Assembly: GCA_017303975.1 (NCBI GenBank)
Contig: JAFLBG010000001.1
Coordinates: 155,988-219,987, forward strand
Length of the DNA stretch: 64,000 nt
DNA from: Bacteroidota bacterium
Lineage (GTDB): Bacteria > Bacteroidota > Bacteroidia > JAFLBG01
Reading direction: 5' to 3'
Shown here: positions 13,831 through 21,121 of the stretch, in pieces
Numbering within the stretch: the first letter of the stretch is position 1
How the letters are laid out: each line of letters starts with the position of its first letter
Translations under genes and position numbers: made by a program
Notes under the pieces: generated by a model
Databases searched by the model: none
Seen by the model: only the letters and a program-made list of their open reading frames with translations
What the model was told of the DNA's origin: nothing

Positions 13831-15396
13831 TTAGTGTGCCTCTATCTTTTCGGTTTCGGGGATTGCAATTAATTCAACCTGTATATTTCTAAGAGGGGCG
13901 GTATGTTTTTTGTAATCATAAATAATTTCTATTACATCATAATCAATGTTATTCGATTTCGAGCCATCAATAATTACTTTGCTTTTCGGTGGAATATGAT
14001 CTAATGTTTGTAAAATGCTTCCTTTGTTTAGAAACGAAACCTCTTCGGAAAGTACCAATCTGATTACCTCATCTTTATTGTGCGTTTCTTTTTTATAAGA
14101 GTAAGAATATTTATAGTTTTTGCGCAAAATGAAGTAAATGGCCACGCACATTCCTATCGCAATTCCTTTTAATAAATCAGTAGATAAGATGGCTATAACC
14201 GTTACCACAAAAGGGATAAACTGATCTGCACCCAATTTGTACATCCCCTTAAAAAGAGACACTTTTGCTAACTTGTAACCTACTAACAATAATATTGCTG
14301 CTAGGGATGCAATTGGAATATAATTCAAATACCGTGGAATTAAAATAGCGGAGACCAGCAGAATAGCCCCGTGTATAATAGTTGCTAATTTTGTTCTTCC
14401 GCCAGAGCTAATATTAGCAGAGCTTCTAACAATTACTTGTGTTATTGGTAAACCACCTATCAATCCCGAAACAATATTTCCAATCCCTTGCGCTTTTAGT
14501 TCTTTATTGGTAGGTGTGTTTCTTTTATATGGATCTAACTTATCGGTAGCTTCTACAGATAAAAGAGTTTCCAAGCTTGCTACAATGGCTAATGTGAATG
14601 CGACTTTGTACACATTTATGTTAGAAAACTGTGAAAAGTCGGGAGTTGTGAAAAAACTTATAAATTGCTGAAAAGTAGAAGCAACGGGTAATTGCACTAA
14701 ATGCTCCCCATTCAAAAATAATTCAGGGGAAATAATTGCATACGCTTGATTAATTAAAATACCTACTAATACTACAAATAAGGAGCCGGGCAAAAATTTA
14801 AACAGTTGCACTTTTTTCATAAAGGGCCTATCAAACAAAAGGATCAATCCAATAGATACTATGGAAATAATTATTGCGCCAAAGCTATTATATACAACTG
14901 CATAATAAATATCAGAAAAAGTGTTATGTCCATCAATTTGGTCAAAAGATTCGTCCCCCATAAAATCTTTGTCGAAACCTAATGCGTGCGGAATTTCTTT
15001 TAAGATTAATGTAATACCGATTGCCGCCAACATACCCTTAATTACTGACGAAGGGAAATAGTGCCCTATAATTCCGGCACGAAGGAATCCTGCAATTAAT
15101 TGAATAATTCCTGCAATTACAACCGCTAATAAAAATGCTTCGTAGCTGCCTAGTGTGGTAAGTGCATTCAATACAATAACAACTAAGCCCGCAGCAGGCC
15201 CCGACACACCTAATGCAGAGCCGCTTAAAATACCCACGACTATACCCCCTACCATTCCGGCAATTATTCCGGAGAAAAGTAAATCGGGGCGACCAGTTGA
15301 TGCAGAAGCTACGCCTAAACACAAGGGCAGTGCAACAAGATAAACAACAAGCCCCGCAGGGAAATCGTACTTAATATTTTCGAAATATTTTTTCAT
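13831..15396 (-). CDS. SulP family anion transporter with STAS domain (probable bicarbonate)
   Basis: The 521-residue protein starts with the SulP signature region (FPAGLVVYLVALPLCLGVA) and has 10-12 hydrophobic segments up to about residue 415. A soluble STAS-like domain (~435-515) contains the strand KVIIDGSKSNNIDYD. SulP proteins move sulfate, bicarbonate or other anions across the inner membrane. The substrate cannot be read from the protein alone. A beta-carbonic anhydrase gene just upstream on the same strand (75-base gap) points to bicarbonate, as in other SulP/carbonic anhydrase pairs. Confidence 0.9.
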   Translation of the reverse strand: MKKYFENIKYDFPAGLVVYLVALPLCLGVASASTGRPDLLFSGIIAGMVGGIVVGILSGSALGVSGPAAGLVVIVLNALTTLGSYEAFLLAVVIAGIIQLIAGFLRAGIIGHYFPSSVIKGMLAAIGITLILKEIPHALGFDKDFMGDESFDQIDGHNTFSDIYYAVVYNSFGAIIISIVSIGLILLFDRPFMKKVQLFKFLPGSLFVVLVGILINQAYAIISPELFLNGEHLVQLPVASTFQQFISFFTTPDFSQFSNINVYKVAFTLAIVASLETLLSVEATDKLDPYKRNTPTNKELKAQGIGNIVSGLIGGLPITQVIVRSSANISSGGRTKLATIIHGAILLVSAILIPRYLNYIPIASLAAILLLVGYKLAKVSLFKGMYKLGADQFIPFVVTVIAILSTDLLKGIAIGMCVAIYFILRKNYKYSYSYKKETHNKDEVIRLVLSEEVSFLNKGSILQTLDHIPPKSKVIIDGSKSNNIDYDVIEIIYDYKKHTAPLRNIQVELIAIPETEKIEAH

Positions 15397-15470
15397 TAGC
15401 AGTTAAGATAAATTTGAATTGTATAACAATAGTTGGTTTTGCCAGTTTGGTAAACCAATTTGTTAGGAGA

Positions 15471-16118
15471 TTAAATTATTTGTTCAAAATCAAATTTATA
15501 AACCCCATCTATTTCTTTGTTGTCTCCAACGGTAACATTTAAGTCTTTCAATAAACCATTAGCTACATCATATACTAAACCATGTACCTGAAGAAACCTT
15601 CCGGTAGCCCATGTGTTTTGAATTATAGATGTTTTTATCAAATCAAGCACTTGCTCTTGCACATTCAGTTCTACCAACCTTCTTCTTTTTTGTTCTAAAT
15701 CGGCAATACTGTCAATTTCTTTTTTATGCAAACGATACACATCTTTTATGTGTCGAAGCCAGTTGTCAATTATACCTACTTGTTTATTATCAAGCGCTGC
15801 ATTAATACCGCCACAACCATAATGTCCGCATACAATTACGTGGCTTACCTCTAAAACATTTACTGCGTAATCAAGTACACTAAGCATGTTCATGTCCGTG
15901 TGTACTACCATGTTGGCAATATTTCTGTGTACAAATATTTCTCCTGGCTGAGTTCCAGTAATTTCGTTCGCAGGCACTCTGCTGTCGGAACATCCAATCC
16001 ACAAAATGGGAGGTTTTTGTCCTTTAGCTAGTTTGTTAAAATAATCAGGGTCTGATGTCGTTTTCTCTTCTACCCACTTTTTGTTATTTACGAATATATC
16101 TTGATAAATTTTTGGCAT
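15471..16118 (-). CDS. Beta-class carbonic anhydrase
   Basis: The protein has 215 residues. The zinc ligands and active-site dyad are visible: Cys43 in GCSDSRVP with Asp45 and Arg47, then His99 and Cys102 in GHYGCGG. The segment PGEIFVHRNIANMV is also typical. It interconverts CO2 and bicarbonate. No signal peptide is seen, so it should act in the cytoplasm, where it would trap or use the bicarbonate brought in by the adjacent SulP transporter, with which it is probably co-transcribed as the first gene. Confidence 0.95.
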   Translation of the reverse strand: MPKIYQDIFVNNKKWVEEKTTSDPDYFNKLAKGQKPPILWIGCSDSRVPANEITGTQPGEIFVHRNIANMVVHTDMNMLSVLDYAVNVLEVSHVIVCGHYGCGGINAALDNKQVGIIDNWLRHIKDVYRLHKKEIDSIADLEQKRRRLVELNVQEQVLDLIKTSIIQNTWATGRFLQVHGLVYDVANGLLKDLNVTVGDNKEIDGVYKFDFEQII

Positions 16119-16592: not shown

Positions 16593-17642
16593 ATGCGAAA
16601 AATACTACTTTTTTTACTTGTGGGTGCACTCCCAATTGTTAATTCTTGTGAAAAAAAGAAAGATGTACAAGGATGTACAGATGCCGATGCGACTAACTAC
16701 AATGCAGACGCTACTGTTGATGACGAATCTTGCACATACAACTACGATGCCTCAACAGATAAAAATGAGGCGAAACAAGCTGCAGGGAATACCACTACAG
16801 GTATATACGAAGATTTAATGGTGTTTACCATGGTACAATACGAATCTGATAACAATGCCGGACTAGGAAAAACAAATGGCACAACGCCTACACCTGCCTG
16901 TGCAAATGTGTCCATCACCCCTAGTTTGCCTACTGTTTGGCCCAAGAAACTTACAATTGATTTTGGTACTACTAATTGTTTGTGTGATGACGGAAAATAC
17001 CGAACAGGCAAAATCGAAGCTCGATTCAACGACAGTTGGGTAACACCGACATCTAATGGTCCAAAGGACAGTATGGTGGTAACCCTTACCAATTACCACG
17101 TAAACGACACCATGCTTATGGGCACTAGAATATTTGTGAAAGACAGCATTTCAGCATCGGTATTGAGTATCACTGCGATTGTAAATAATGCAGGCGTTGT
17201 TTTTCCCGGAACATCTGGAAACGATACGTTAAACTGGAGTTATACAGGATCTGTTAAACTTACTTTTGGAAATAAGGGTGACTATAACGATAATGTAGTA
17301 AGTTTAAATATTTCAGGAAATGTTGATACAAAAGTTGGAACATATGCTATTCAGACATTGCAAACGCTATCCACACAATTTAGTTGTCTGTCAACGTGTG
17401 TTTTTACTGCTGGACAATTAAAATTATCTAATACCGAGGCACAAAGTGTGAAAGTGGGACCTAAAACCTATAGTGCAAGTGTAACAACAGCCTATACACT
17501 CGATTTTGGAACAGGTAGCTGTGACGGTACGATCAACTCATCAACAAATGTGGTTGGTGTTAATACCACTGATAGTTCAGAGTTGTTTAATGAATCAAGT
17601 TCCGAAACGATTAACTGTGATGATTTTACAGACTGGGAATAA
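16593..17642 (+). CDS. Lipoprotein with Asp-rich N-terminal motif, unknown function
   Basis: The 349-residue protein has a type II signal peptide with lipobox VNSC (Cys19). Just after it comes GCTDADATNYN followed by DATVDDESC, a short two-cysteine Asp/Asn motif that recurs in many secreted Bacteroidota proteins and resembles calcium-binding loops. The rest (~60-349) is a beta-rich region with paired cysteines (NCLCDDG, CLSTC) and no family I recognise. It probably sits in the outer membrane facing the periplasm or surface. A strong terminator separates it from the sigma-factor gene. Confidence 0.75.
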   Translation: MRKILLFLLVGALPIVNSCEKKKDVQGCTDADATNYNADATVDDESCTYNYDASTDKNEAKQAAGNTTTGIYEDLMVFTMVQYESDNNAGLGKTNGTTPTPACANVSITPSLPTVWPKKLTIDFGTTNCLCDDGKYRTGKIEARFNDSWVTPTSNGPKDSMVVTLTNYHVNDTMLMGTRIFVKDSISASVLSITAIVNNAGVVFPGTSGNDTLNWSYTGSVKLTFGNKGDYNDNVVSLNISGNVDTKVGTYAIQTLQTLSTQFSCLSTCVFTAGQLKLSNTEAQSVKVGPKTYSASVTTAYTLDFGTGSCDGTINSSTNVVGVNTTDSSELFNESSSETINCDDFTDWE

Positions 17643-17667: not shown

Positions 17668-17697
17668 CTAAAAAAGGGCTCTAAAGCCCTTTTTTAG
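17668..17697 (+). terminator. Intrinsic terminator after the lipoprotein gene
   Basis: A 13-bp stem (17668-17680 with 17685-17697) has a four-base loop (CTAA). The core AGGGCT/AGCCCT is followed by a T6 run. It isolates the sigma-factor locus from the upstream gene. Confidence 0.85.
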
Positions 17698-17734: not shown

Positions 17735-17760
17735 GTAACTTTTATTACTATTGGTTCGTC
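17735..17760 (+). promoter_or_regulatory. ECF-type promoter upstream of the sigma-factor gene
   Basis: GTAACTTTT (17735-17743), 13 bases and CGTC (17757-17760) form GTAAC-N17-CGTC, the general layout of ECF sigma promoters (AAC-containing -35, CGTC -10). The same motif with identical spacing precedes the barrel gene at 19580. The sigma ATG is 24 bases downstream, so the factor probably activates its own gene. Confidence 0.7.
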
Positions 17761-17784
17761 ACATACAAAACGGAATTCTATTTA

Positions 17785-18270
17785 ATGACTATTGAGGAGT
17801 ACAATACATGTGTAGATAATTTCTCGGACGGCATTTACCGGTTTATCCTTAAAAACGCCAAGGATACCGATAAAGCCAAGGATATTGTGCAAGACACTTT
17901 TGAGAAGCTTTGGAACAAGGTGTTGGATGTAGATTTTTCAAAGGCAAAATCGTATTTGTTTACAACCGCATACCACACATTTATTGATCAAGTAAGAAGA
18001 GAGAAAAAACAAGGAGATTGGGAAGAAGCGCCATTACAAAGTCTTACCCACACAAAACAATATTCCGATTTAAAACACATACTAGAGGATGCGTTAAATA
18101 AACTTCCGGATATTCAAAAATCTGTACTAATGCTGCGTGATTATGAAGGGTACAACTACCAAGAGATTGGAGAGATAACCTCATTAACAGAAGCGCAAGT
18201 AAAGGTATATATTTTTAGAGCACGAACTTTTTTGAAAAATTATATTGGCAGTATAGAAAACGTATTATAA
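17785..18270 (+). CDS. ECF RNA polymerase sigma factor
   Basis: The protein has 161 residues, the normal size for an ECF sigma factor. Region 2 covers ~10-75 (DIVQDTFEKLWNKV, then AKSYLFTTAYHTFIDQVRRE). Region 4 covers ~105-155 (LPDIQKSVLMLRDYEGYNYQEIG and EAQVKVYIFRARTFLKNYI). It directs RNA polymerase to a small regulon. Its own upstream region and that of the barrel gene at 19673 carry the same ECF promoter. The anti-sigma candidate starts one base after its stop codon, the usual arrangement for a coupled sigma/anti-sigma pair. Confidence 0.93.
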   Translation: MTIEEYNTCVDNFSDGIYRFILKNAKDTDKAKDIVQDTFEKLWNKVLDVDFSKAKSYLFTTAYHTFIDQVRREKKQGDWEEAPLQSLTHTKQYSDLKHILEDALNKLPDIQKSVLMLRDYEGYNYQEIGEITSLTEAQVKVYIFRARTFLKNYIGSIENVL

Positions 18271-18271
18271 C

Positions 18272-19564
18272 GTGGAGATAAACAAACATAATTACTCATT
18301 TTACCTAGAGCAATACACCAATGGCTCTATGGACGAGGCTTTACAAGAAGCTTTTGAGCAATTTATGGTTGATAATCCGGAATTGTGGGATACCACAACA
18401 ACTATTCTTGATTTGGAAGAAATCACACTGCCTTTTTCAGAAAAAGAATCGCTAAAAAAAACTACTATTTCACTAGATAATTACGCCACTTTTTTTGTCC
18501 GAAAAATAGACAATGATTTGTCTAATGCTGAAATAGCAGCCCTAGATGCCTTTCTTGACAAAAATCCGCACTTAAAAGGAGAAGTTGCATTATTTGAAAA
18601 AGCAAAATTGAATACAGATACAACTATTGTTTTTGAAGAGAAGCAAGCATTAAAAAAAACAGAAACAGTAATTACAGCAGACAATTATGCGCACTATATT
18701 GTTCTTGAACTAGACAATGAATTGGGGGAGTACGAAAGTAAAAAACTTGCTCAATTTATAGCTACCAATAAAAAATATGAACAAGAAAAAGAGTTGTACG
18801 CTAAAAGTCGTCTGGTTGCACATCCCGTCCTATTTGAGGATAAGGAACTATTGAAAAATATTGGCAGCAGAAAGAAAAATGGGCTGTTCTATTACATTTC
18901 AATTGCTGCATCTATTCTCGTTTTGCTGGGTATTGGAATTGTATTTTTAAATCAAGCGAAAGACGAAGCCACTTCCATTTCTTTGTCGAATATTAATACG
19001 TTAGATGCACTTGTGAAAAAGACTGCCCCAGTCATATCGCACAGTACTAACACGACTAATGGCATTACAGCGAAACCTAAAAGTGAGTCATCCCGAGAAC
19101 ATAAATTCGCATCCAATGCTACTAAAAAAAGAAAAAGGAAAAATCGTGTTTCGGCTACTCCTGAACCACAAGTACCTATTGCGAAAGAACAAATAACTCC
19201 TGATACGTTAACCACAACTATCTATGCAGCAACTAGTATAGATACCAATGATGTTGGAAGTGCTACTTTTTCGGCAAACACCGAAAATGCTTTACCTGTT
19301 GCGCCCCAAACCTATTACATATACGAAAAGGTGGCCGTTGAAAAAAAATCAACATGGATAAAACAAGTATTGACTAAAAAAGATTCTAAAACAGAAAAAC
19401 AGAAAAATGGGTTTACTCAACTACTAGCTAAAACAGTTGCAAGGCTGACTAACAAAAAAATTATATATACCCCTAGCTATAATGAATACAATGAGTTGGT
19501 GGCATATTCGATACAAACACCAGGGTTTGCGATGTCTAAAAATATAGGAAATGAAGAAGAATAA
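18272..19564 (+). CDS. Putative membrane anti-sigma factor with triplicated cytosolic module
   Basis: The gene begins at a GTG one base after the sigma-factor stop. No closer in-frame ATG fits. The 430-residue protein has three diverged copies of a ~60-residue module (~5-66, 69-132, 137-197), each with an NY start, a DN(D/E)L or similar turn, a helix ending near a KNP/NP, and a closing F-E-(E/D)-K-x-x-LKK. One membrane helix follows (~204-227), then a long Lys/Thr/Ser-rich periplasmic tail. No zinc-finger HxxxCxxC motif is seen. Position, topology and the sigma neighbour support an anti-sigma role; this is inference. Confidence 0.7.
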   Translation: MEINKHNYSFYLEQYTNGSMDEALQEAFEQFMVDNPELWDTTTTILDLEEITLPFSEKESLKKTTISLDNYATFFVRKIDNDLSNAEIAALDAFLDKNPHLKGEVALFEKAKLNTDTTIVFEEKQALKKTETVITADNYAHYIVLELDNELGEYESKKLAQFIATNKKYEQEKELYAKSRLVAHPVLFEDKELLKNIGSRKKNGLFYYISIAASILVLLGIGIVFLNQAKDEATSISLSNINTLDALVKKTAPVISHSTNTTNGITAKPKSESSREHKFASNATKKRKRKNRVSATPEPQVPIAKEQITPDTLTTTIYAATSIDTNDVGSATFSANTENALPVAPQTYYIYEKVAVEKKSTWIKQVLTKKDSKTEKQKNGFTQLLAKTVARLTNKKIIYTPSYNEYNELVAYSIQTPGFAMSKNIGNEEE

Positions 19565-19579
19565 TTTTTAGAACGAACT

Positions 19580-19605
19580 GTAACTTTTACCATGTCTCAA
19601 TCGTC
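19580..19605 (+). promoter_or_regulatory. ECF-type promoter upstream of the GIN-domain/barrel gene
   Basis: GTAACTTTT (19580-19588), 13 bases and CGTC (19602-19605) repeat the motif at 17735-17760 with identical spacing. The 13 spacer bases mostly differ, so the match is not a plain duplication. The expected start of transcription is ~60 bases before the ATG at 19673. Confidence 0.7.
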
Positions 19606-19635
19606 CTATTATAAAGGAAGCTAAAACATAGGATA

Positions 19636-19646
19636 TAATTTTAGCA
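19636..19646 (+). promoter_or_regulatory. Possible second, housekeeping-type -7 element for the barrel gene
   Basis: TAATTTTAGCA matches the TAnnTTTAGCA pattern also found before rnr, the SpoIIE gene and the YfhO gene in this window. It lies 26 bases before the ATG and would give basal expression besides the ECF promoter. No -33 TTG is seen. Confidence 0.35.
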
Positions 19647-19672
19647 CAAGTAAAAATTAAACTAGATACCAA

Positions 19673-21121
19673 ATGAAAAACTTAATTCCCGCAGCATTTT
19701 TAACACTAGGATTATTGTTACATGCAAAAGCACAAACAGCCAGTTTTACTAAAGTACATTTGAATGGCAACGTAGATGTGGTAGTTGAACAATCGGACAG
19801 TTTTTTAGTTGCAATTAATGCTTCTGAAAATAACGCACCTAAGATAAAAACTACCATTTCTAACGAAGGTGTACTTACAATAACAACGGATGCAGGCATT
19901 AAAACATCTGAGAAAGCAAGTATATTAATAAAAGTGCCTAAGCTAAACGAACTAGAAATTAACGGTTCGGGTAATATTAAAAGTAAAGGAACATTAACGA
20001 CCGACAATATTGCGCTTATTACAAAATCAACCGGCTCTATGGATTTAAACATAAAGGCCTCAGAAATAAATGCAACCATACATTCCATTGGGGTAATAAA
20101 ACTTGCAGGAGAAACCTCTGTGTTAAATACTGAGATAACGGGTGTAGGCAGTATTGATGCGTTTGAGCTTCAATCAAACAAAACAAAAGTTTCAATATCG
20201 GGTGCTGGTTCTGCACAGGTGCAGGCTAAAGATAAGCTAGAGGCGTCCGTATCGGGTGTAGGTTCGGTTGTATACAAAGGAACTCCTTCCGAAAAAATAA
20301 TTGAGGTAAGTGGTCTAGGTGCAGTAAAATCGAAAGAAACAAAAGAGATGGTAAGAAACCCAGGTACAAAATTTAATTTTTTCAACAAACAAATTACTGT
20401 AGAAGATGATGAAATTGAGGGTGAAGAAGAAAAGAAGTATGAGTACGATGCAGGCGATTTTAAACATTGGAGAGGGATTGGATTTGGTATAAATGGATAC
20501 ATGAGAGATGCATCATTCGTGCTTCCTGGAGGATATCCATATTTAGAATTAGATTATGCAAAATCGTTTTCTTTTAGTTGGAATGTCATAGAAAGACAAA
20601 TGCGCTTAACAAAGAATGCTCCTAATGTAAACTTGTTTTGGGGTGTTGGATTTGAATGGAACTCATATGCTTTGCAAAATAATTATAGATTAAGACCATC
20701 AAACTGGAAACCCGAAGGAAACGTTATATTAGACGCACCTCCATTAACTTTAGGTGCGGATTACGAAGCAACGGACGTGTTTACTAAAAATAAATTGAAA
20801 ACAGTTTTTGTGAAAGTTCCTTTAATGCTCGAAATAAATTCATCATCTAATCCTGATAAAAATTTCCATGTAGCAGCCGGAGTAATTGGCGGGTACCGCC
20901 TTGCAGCAAAAACAAAAATTAAATACGAAAAGAATAATGATGAAAAAAAGGAAGTCGTGAAAAATGATTATTTCATAAATCCATTCCGTGTGGAGGCAGC
21001 TTTCCGAATTGGATACAAGCATAACACCTTATTTGCCAACTATGCTTTAACATCTTTATTTCAAGACACAAAGGGTCCCGAATTAAATCCATTTACAATA
21101 GGGATACACAGAAGTATATAA
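19673..21121 (+). CDS. GIN (DUF2807) head domain fused to an outer-membrane beta-barrel
   Basis: This 482-residue protein has a signal peptide (residues 1-21). Residues ~24-215 form a DUF2807/putative auto-transporter adhesin head-GIN domain, a right-handed beta-helix-like fold with repeated short strands (LNGNVDVVVEQSD, INGSGNIKSKG, GVGSIDAFEL, GAGSAQVQAK, GVGSVVYKG). A short acidic linker (EDDEIEGEEEKK) leads to a barrel-like region (~255-482) with alternating aromatic strands (FSFSWNVIERQ, NVNLFWGVGFEW, FVKVPLMLEI, VEAAFRIGYKH). It should sit in the outer membrane with the head domain in the periplasm or outside. Its ECF promoter marks it as a probable target of the adjacent sigma factor. 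Confidence 0.8.
   Translation: MKNLIPAAFLTLGLLLHAKAQTASFTKVHLNGNVDVVVEQSDSFLVAINASENNAPKIKTTISNEGVLTITTDAGIKTSEKASILIKVPKLNELEINGSGNIKSKGTLTTDNIALITKSTGSMDLNIKASEINATIHSIGVIKLAGETSVLNTEITGVGSIDAFELQSNKTKVSISGAGSAQVQAKDKLEASVSGVGSVVYKGTPSEKIIEVSGLGAVKSKETKEMVRNPGTKFNFFNKQITVEDDEIEGEEEKKYEYDAGDFKHWRGIGFGINGYMRDASFVLPGGYPYLELDYAKSFSFSWNVIERQMRLTKNAPNVNLFWGVGFEWNSYALQNNYRLRPSNWKPEGNVILDAPPLTLGADYEATDVFTKNKLKTVFVKVPLMLEINSSSNPDKNFHVAAGVIGGYRLAAKTKIKYEKNNDEKKEVVKNDYFINPFRVEAAFRIGYKHNTLFANYALTSLFQDTKGPELNPFTIGIHRSI

Follow-up and report, generated by a model that had tools for sequence, protein, structure and literature searches.

How can we tell, from an assembled genome, whether a sigma factor controls its own gene together with a gene further down the same strand? 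The question is raised by a locus in a 64,000-nucleotide stretch of a Bacteroidota bacterium (GenBank assembly GCA_017303975.1, contig JAFLBG010000001.1, positions 155,988 to 219,987), which we call the window. There, a gene for an extracytoplasmic function (ECF) sigma factor is followed by a gene for a putative membrane-anchored anti-sigma factor and by a gene for an outer-membrane protein, and the same promoter-like motif stands before the first gene and before the third. A first-pass annotation of the window, which ran no database searches, proposed that the three genes form a self-regulating ECF circuit with an outer-membrane output. That proposal has held up: we put the probability that the locus is an autoregulated circuit of ECF sigma factor, membrane anti-sigma factor and outer-membrane protein at roughly 0.87. 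The position of the motif, the dependence of its second copy on the presence of an output gene, and the matched changes in the -10 boxes of the two promoters are the evidence that carries this reading.

The promoter pair in the window and in the genome

The motif GTAACTTTT-N13-CGTC has two matches in the window, before the sigma gene and before the output gene (Table 1), and no third on either strand of the 64 kb; 100 dinucleotide shuffles of the window give a mean of 0.00 matches. Both matches can be read as GTAAC-N17-CGTC, and GTAAC-CGTC is the general layout of ECF promoters. The spacers of the two sites are unlike (ATTACTATTGGTT vs. ACCATGTCTCAAT). The annotation was right on all three of these points. 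The two halves of the motif are both short, which would favor a repeat arising by chance or by a recent duplication of DNA. We regard that explanation as refuted and assign it next to no probability, given the zero expectation in shuffles, the unlike spacers, and the recurrence of the arrangement in many families.

The annotation had proposed a scan of the whole genome for the motif. In the 3,425,131 bases of the genome (70 contigs, 99.8% complete), GTAACTTTT-N13-CGTC has five matches, compared with 0 for a reversed control pattern. The motif is not found inside genes as often as in front of them: all five sites lie outside long open reading frames, and a gene on the same strand begins 21-110 bp downstream. 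At the three sites away from the window, the gene that follows always encodes an envelope or secreted protein. Site C16 is 43 bp upstream of the gene for a protein that resembles lipoproteins and weakly matches DUF4190, C18 is 110 bp upstream of the gene for a protein with a sorting domain of the type IX secretion system (T9SS), and C58 is 21 bp upstream of a gene with a sub-threshold match to an outer-membrane protein barrel. The shorter pattern TGTAAC-N17-CGTC adds a sixth exact match, within a gene and on the opposite strand, which is probably due to chance. The regulon could not be extended by genome scans with one or three mismatches, which are too noisy, as the controls outnumber the matches to the pattern.

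Conservation of the promoter pair in relatives

Homologues of the sigma factor were collected from whole genomes of the same class and from 80 named loci, and their genera include Draconibacterium, Carboxylicivirga, Ancylomarina, Sunxiuqinia and Cryomorpha. In 86 of 105 loci, we observe GTAAC-N16/17-CGTC 9-51 bp upstream of the sigma gene. The reversed pattern occurs there 0 times and two patterns with wrong spacers 1 and 2 times. Nearly all of the sigma loci that lack the full motif have GTAAC followed by an altered -10 box. Over 1.93 Mb of strand-bases, 134 of the 145 motif matches fall at the two expected places.

The second of these places is between the anti-sigma gene and the output gene. 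A site is found there in 41 of the 50 loci with an adjacent barrel or GIN gene, and in 1 of the 30 loci without one (Fisher p=8e-13; the loci include close relatives and are not phylogenetically independent, and both this value and the permutation p-value given below overstate the certainty). The sole exception among these 30 is L089, in which a barrel open reading frame starts inside the frame of the anti-sigma gene and was missed by our distance rule. As this contrast shows, the second site goes with the output gene and does not simply mark where the anti-sigma gene ends. We consider both the promoter pair and its persistence in relatives well supported by the sequence comparison, and the same probable circuit with its promoter pair recurs across much of Bacteroidota, as the annotation's suggested comparison with relatives was meant to find out.

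One sigma factor or several

If one sigma factor reads both sites, a change in the -10 box of one promoter is expected to be matched in the other. Both promoters can be read in 52 loci, and the -10 boxes (sigma promoter/output promoter) are CGTC/CGTC in 41, CGTA/CGTA in 4, CATC/CATC in 2, GCTC/TCTC in 1, and CGTT/CGTC in 4. From this comparison we removed by hand three loci that lack an output gene and whose second sites are spurious. When close relatives are collapsed into clades, which we delimited manually on the basis of the sigma tree and the families, three matched -10 changes remain (permutation p=6e-5).

Several observations weigh against the self-regulating circuit. The genome holds about ten ECF-like genes, and with a promoter layout as general as GTAAC-CGTC, cross-reading by another ECF factor is possible. 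In genome G031 (L169), which has no close homologue of the window sigma factor, TGTAACTTTT-N12-CGTC stands 13 bp upstream of the gene for another ECF sigma factor, of 169 aa; the motif is therefore not unique to the window sigma factor. Four loci of Ancylomarina/Marinifilaceae (L124, L131, L138 and L160) form the sole unmatched lineage, with CGTT at the sigma promoter and CGTC at the output promoter. Across the genomes of 60 relatives, the strict motif shows no enrichment (about 17 matches vs. about 15 for the reversed control), so that the support in relatives is positional, and the relatedness of the loci bears on it as said above. As for the anti-sigma factor, a fold search with its model has no significant match (RsiW, 5wuq, comes at rank 42 with E=2.7), and a profile of its first module has no match in the PDB.

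The first two of these observations would also be expected if the two promoters were read by different or by several ECF factors sharing GTAAC-CGTC, in which case the genes would be co-regulated but not self-regulated. Overlapping ECF regulons are suggested for a CGT-type motif of Flavobacterium, SM6 (PMC9723704). We find this alternative improbable: of about 100 loci, most have the motif together with the window-type sigma factor, and the -10 variants shift in pairs. That one ECF sigma factor reads both promoters is very likely, because the sigma site is conserved, the presence of the second site depends on that of the output gene, and the -10 boxes mostly change in pairs.

Away from the main locus, motif sites in relatives precede genes for exported proteins, among them a free DUF2807 protein at L168, a fusion of GIN domain and barrel at L181, and a further barrel at L180. 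Since the genome-wide frequency of the motif in relatives is no higher than that of its control, we take these placements as no more than suggestive. In two genomes without a close homologue of the sigma factor, TGTAACTTTT-N12/13-CGTC is seen 22 bp before the gene for an outer membrane efflux protein (TolC-type, PF02321; L172, G021) and 22 bp before the gene for a putative secreted or outer-membrane protein (L184, G015).

Table 1. Features of the locus, in window coordinates. HMM, hidden Markov model; pLDDT, predicted local distance difference test score; TM, transmembrane.
Feature	Position	Strand	Description and basis
Hairpin, likely bidirectional terminator	17670..17695		A/T-flanked GGGC/GCCC hairpin; read by eye from sequence
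Promoter 1, before sigma gene	17735..17760	+	-35 GTAAC (17735-17739), N17, -10 CGTC (17757-17760); exact match
ECF sigma factor	17785..18270	+	161 aa; no sigma regions other than 2 and 4; Pfam Sigma70_r2 and Sigma70_r4_2
Putative membrane-anchored anti-sigma factor	18272..19564	+	430 aa, GTG start; three modules, TM helix, tether, folded tail; hydropathy, module HMM, AlphaFold
Anti-sigma module 1	18278..18460	+	residues 3-63; iterated module HMM; predicted helices mostly pLDDT >90
Anti-sigma module 2	18467..18658	+	residues 66-129; module HMM, AlphaFold
Anti-sigma module 3	18671..18856	+	residues 134-195; module HMM, AlphaFold
Anti-sigma TM helix	18881..18958	+	residues 204-229; hydropathy and AlphaFold helix
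Anti-sigma periplasmic C-terminal tail	19400..19543	+	residues 377-424, predicted helix and three strands; AlphaFold; weakly conserved in homologues
Promoter 2, before GIN/barrel gene	19580..19605	+	-35 GTAAC, N17, -10 CGTC; exact match
Outer-membrane output protein	19673..21121	+	482 aa, DUF2807 (GIN/Toastrack) beta-helix and barrel; Pfam, AlphaFold, Foldseek

The sigma factor

The product of the first gene has sigma regions 2 and 4 only and, at 161 aa, falls in the ECF range of about 160-200 aa, so that it is a group 4 (ECF) sigma factor, as the annotation had called it. Its top NCBIfam model is NF058625 (PG0214/GFO_1088). The score of 112.2 bits is below the 130 needed, and we do not count the protein as a member of that equivalog; the same model comes first for 6/6 homologues scored, with 108-122 bits (window included), all under the cut-off.

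Upstream of the sigma gene, the hairpin of Table 1 likely sets the sigma unit apart from the preceding gene. The hairpin was not listed by the terminator scan, as it lies outside the scan's rule for loop and tail.

The anti-sigma factor

The GTG start of the second gene is two bases past the sigma stop codon, and the resulting reading, MEINKHNY, agrees with the family start MxINRxNYE. No Pfam or NCBIfam model reaches its cut-off on the product. The predicted architecture consists of three modules, each of three helices at high confidence, a TM helix, and 204 residues C-terminal of the TM segment; between helix and tail, residues about 230-375 (~150 residues) mostly have a pLDDT below 50-55, as expected for a disordered tether. 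We infer that the protein is an anti-sigma factor from the gene order, the single TM helix, the predicted helical cytoplasmic modules, and weak family matches among homologues (zf-HC2 in 3/54, NCBIfam antisigma in 8/54). The annotation's sensor-like anti-sigma factor is thereby retained as far as gene order, TM helix and helical modules go; what it missed are the tandem modules and a likeness to the Dma proteins of Bacteroides.

Two known classes were considered and rejected. A Class I zinc (zf-HC2) anti-sigma factor would have the zinc motif H-x3-C-x2-C, and the pattern H.{2,4}C..C occurs in 0 of 221 modules across the family. Cell-surface signaling of the FecR type would call for a FecR or DUF4880 domain; the window protein has neither, and among homologues a weak DUF4880 match is seen in 1/54 (best E=0.024).

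A module HMM, started from the three window repeats and iterated, was run on 103 homologous proteins. The module is ~65 residues long, and 7, 76, 19 and 1 of the proteins have 1, 2, 3 and 5 modules, respectively (the window protein has 3); some of these counts are probably too low, as in L094, where one module is called and the TM helix is at residue 189. Along with the module number, we observe that the position of the TM helix jumps among homologues (about residue 78, 140, 205 or 354), and that the module count switches repeatedly along the sigma tree. Module 1 is the best-conserved position and has a consensus of its own (NYEayfLDYlEGnLs vs. nfd..IA.lEGdLs for the last module), which suggests that module 1 may contact the sigma factor. 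The window protein and its homologues L088-L167 look like one anti-sigma family of one to five zinc-less tandem modules for which there is no Pfam family. The modular anti-sigma factor is the more unusual part of the circuit, more so than the DUF2807 output.

The output gene

The annotation described the third gene as a GIN/barrel fusion, and Pfam agrees: the protein matches DUF2807 (PF10988) with 143.6 bits (cut-off 24.2) and OMP_b-brl_2 with 33.2 bits. In the AlphaFold model (mean pLDDT 87), residues 25-205 form a right-handed beta-helix, as in DUF2807 proteins, and residues about 268-481 a C-terminal beta-barrel. Foldseek aligns the GIN part to the solved DUF2807 structures 3pet (E=2.1e-12, TM-score 0.85 by target) and 4opw, and the barrel part to Ail/OmpA-type barrels (E about 1e-3). 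It is the sole DUF2807 gene of the genome.

The fusion is the output in the window, and this part of the annotation does not generalize. Among 57 next-gene proteins across the loci, 46 match OMP_b-brl_2 and 8 match DUF2807, all eight fused to the barrel, so that the barrel is the conserved core of the output and the GIN domain an addition, found in a minority form.

How the circuit may work

In the mechanism that we propose, the anti-sigma factor would normally keep the sigma factor at the inner membrane by means of its tandem cytoplasmic modules. It would span the inner membrane once and reach into the periplasm with its long disordered tether and small folded tail. A change affecting the outer membrane or the barrel would then release the tail, or lead to cleavage of the anti-sigma factor, and so free the sigma factor. 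The freed sigma factor would read GTAAC-N17-CGTC promoters and thereby activate its own operon with the anti-sigma gene, the GIN/barrel gene, and at least three more genes for envelope or secreted proteins in the genome. The anti-sigma factor would sense through its tail, and the barrel would feed back on the anti-sigma factor.

Relation to described systems

In design, the described proteins nearest to the putative anti-sigma factor are the Dma dual-membrane-spanning anti-sigma factors. Dma2 of Bacteroides thetaiotaomicron has an N-terminal anti-sigma domain, a TM helix, a disordered tether and a C-terminal barrel; it is in an operon with a sigma factor, Das, assigned to ECF21, and loss of dma2 raises the expression of its own operon (PMC13088901, where Pardue 2024 PNAS is cited as the founding paper). 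The window resembles this system in that an ECF sigma factor lies beside a protein with candidate N-terminal cytoplasmic modules, one TM helix and a long disordered tether. It differs in having three tandem modules and in encoding the barrel separately, in a gene that has a promoter of the same type to itself; since its C-terminus is predicted to form no more than a helix and three strands, with no fused barrel, the window protein is not itself a Dma.

A more specific version of the circuit follows from this likeness. In a split Dma, the tethered tail would touch a separate, co-regulated barrel in trans, and the barrel would be both the sensor partner and the product. The window protein is comparable to Dma up to the tether, followed by the small folded tail, and the barrel is encoded next door. 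Moreover, two single-module homologues (L081, 4-1498, minus strand; L085, 1983-3465, plus strand) bear a fused C-terminal PorP/SprF (PF11751) barrel and branch outside the multi-module clade. On the other hand, about a third of the homologous loci lack an adjacent barrel and still keep the tail, PorP_SprF and OMP_b-brl_2 are different barrel families, and the sigma tree has only a midpoint root and long outgroup branches. We hold the split Dma as a tentative idea that is somewhat more probably wrong than right. We read the fused and split proteins as forms of one design, and leave the direction of change unassigned. Slightly more doubtful still is the fullest form of the idea, in which a modular family with one to five zinc-less sigma-binding modules, their copy number shifting repeatedly, would use its tether to read a separate, self-induced barrel, so that the product of the circuit would be its sensor. 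The layout of L081 and L085 is itself Dma-like, with a T9SS-type barrel.

Compared with RsiW-like Class I (zf-HC2/ZAS-type) anti-sigma factors, the window family shares a short N-terminal domain, predicted to be helical, before the TM helix, but it lacks H-x(2-4)-C-x2-C and has one to five tandem copies. The output protein touches a different group. A Toastrack group of DUF2807, DUF4097 and DUF2154 has been proposed for envelope-stress proteins of the Lia and PSP systems (PMC11237479). The GIN part of the window protein is a DUF2807 domain matching the solved structures named above, but it is fused to a barrel and stands under an ECF-type promoter instead of LiaRS/PSP control. As for the promoter, the SM6 promoters of Flavobacterium psychrophilum are of the ECF type, have been mapped, and carry a CGT -10 box; one of these promoters precedes a sigma/anti-sigma pair (PMC9723704). 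The window promoters share the CGT -10 box, the comparison being by the -10 box alone; the F. psychrophilum targets described there differ in that they include T9SS components. In the open-licence literature, to which the search was confined, we found no paper that pairs DUF2807 with an ECF sigma factor, deals with GFO_1088, or reports GTAAC in Bacteroidetes; a description published elsewhere may exist.

Why does such a locus matter? In a 2020 survey, class I anti-sigma domains were found beside 6% of Bacteroidetes ECF genes, vs. 32% across all phyla (PMC7406223), which leaves open how most Bacteroidetes ECF sigma factors are controlled. Here we have a widespread pair of a sigma factor and a putative anti-sigma factor, the latter with a variable number of modules and neither a Pfam family nor a zinc motif. 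The predicted promoter is readable in about 100 loci, so that the targets of a Bacteroidota envelope response, its sensing and its evolution can be put to the test. Finally, the locus places a domain of the Toastrack type, familiar from the Lia/PSP stress systems, under a probable ECF promoter.

Neighboring genes

Just upstream of the sigma unit, positions 16593-17642 (plus strand) encode a 349-aa lipoprotein-like protein that contains the segment GCTDADATNYNADATVDDESC and has no Pfam family above cut-off. Further upstream, at 13831-16118 (minus strand), a 521-aa protein whose sequence reads like a SulP-type anion transporter adjoins a 215-aa protein resembling, again by its sequence, a beta-carbonic anhydrase. 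Gene pairs of SulP and carbonic anhydrase are known, and the pair in the window is arranged alike.

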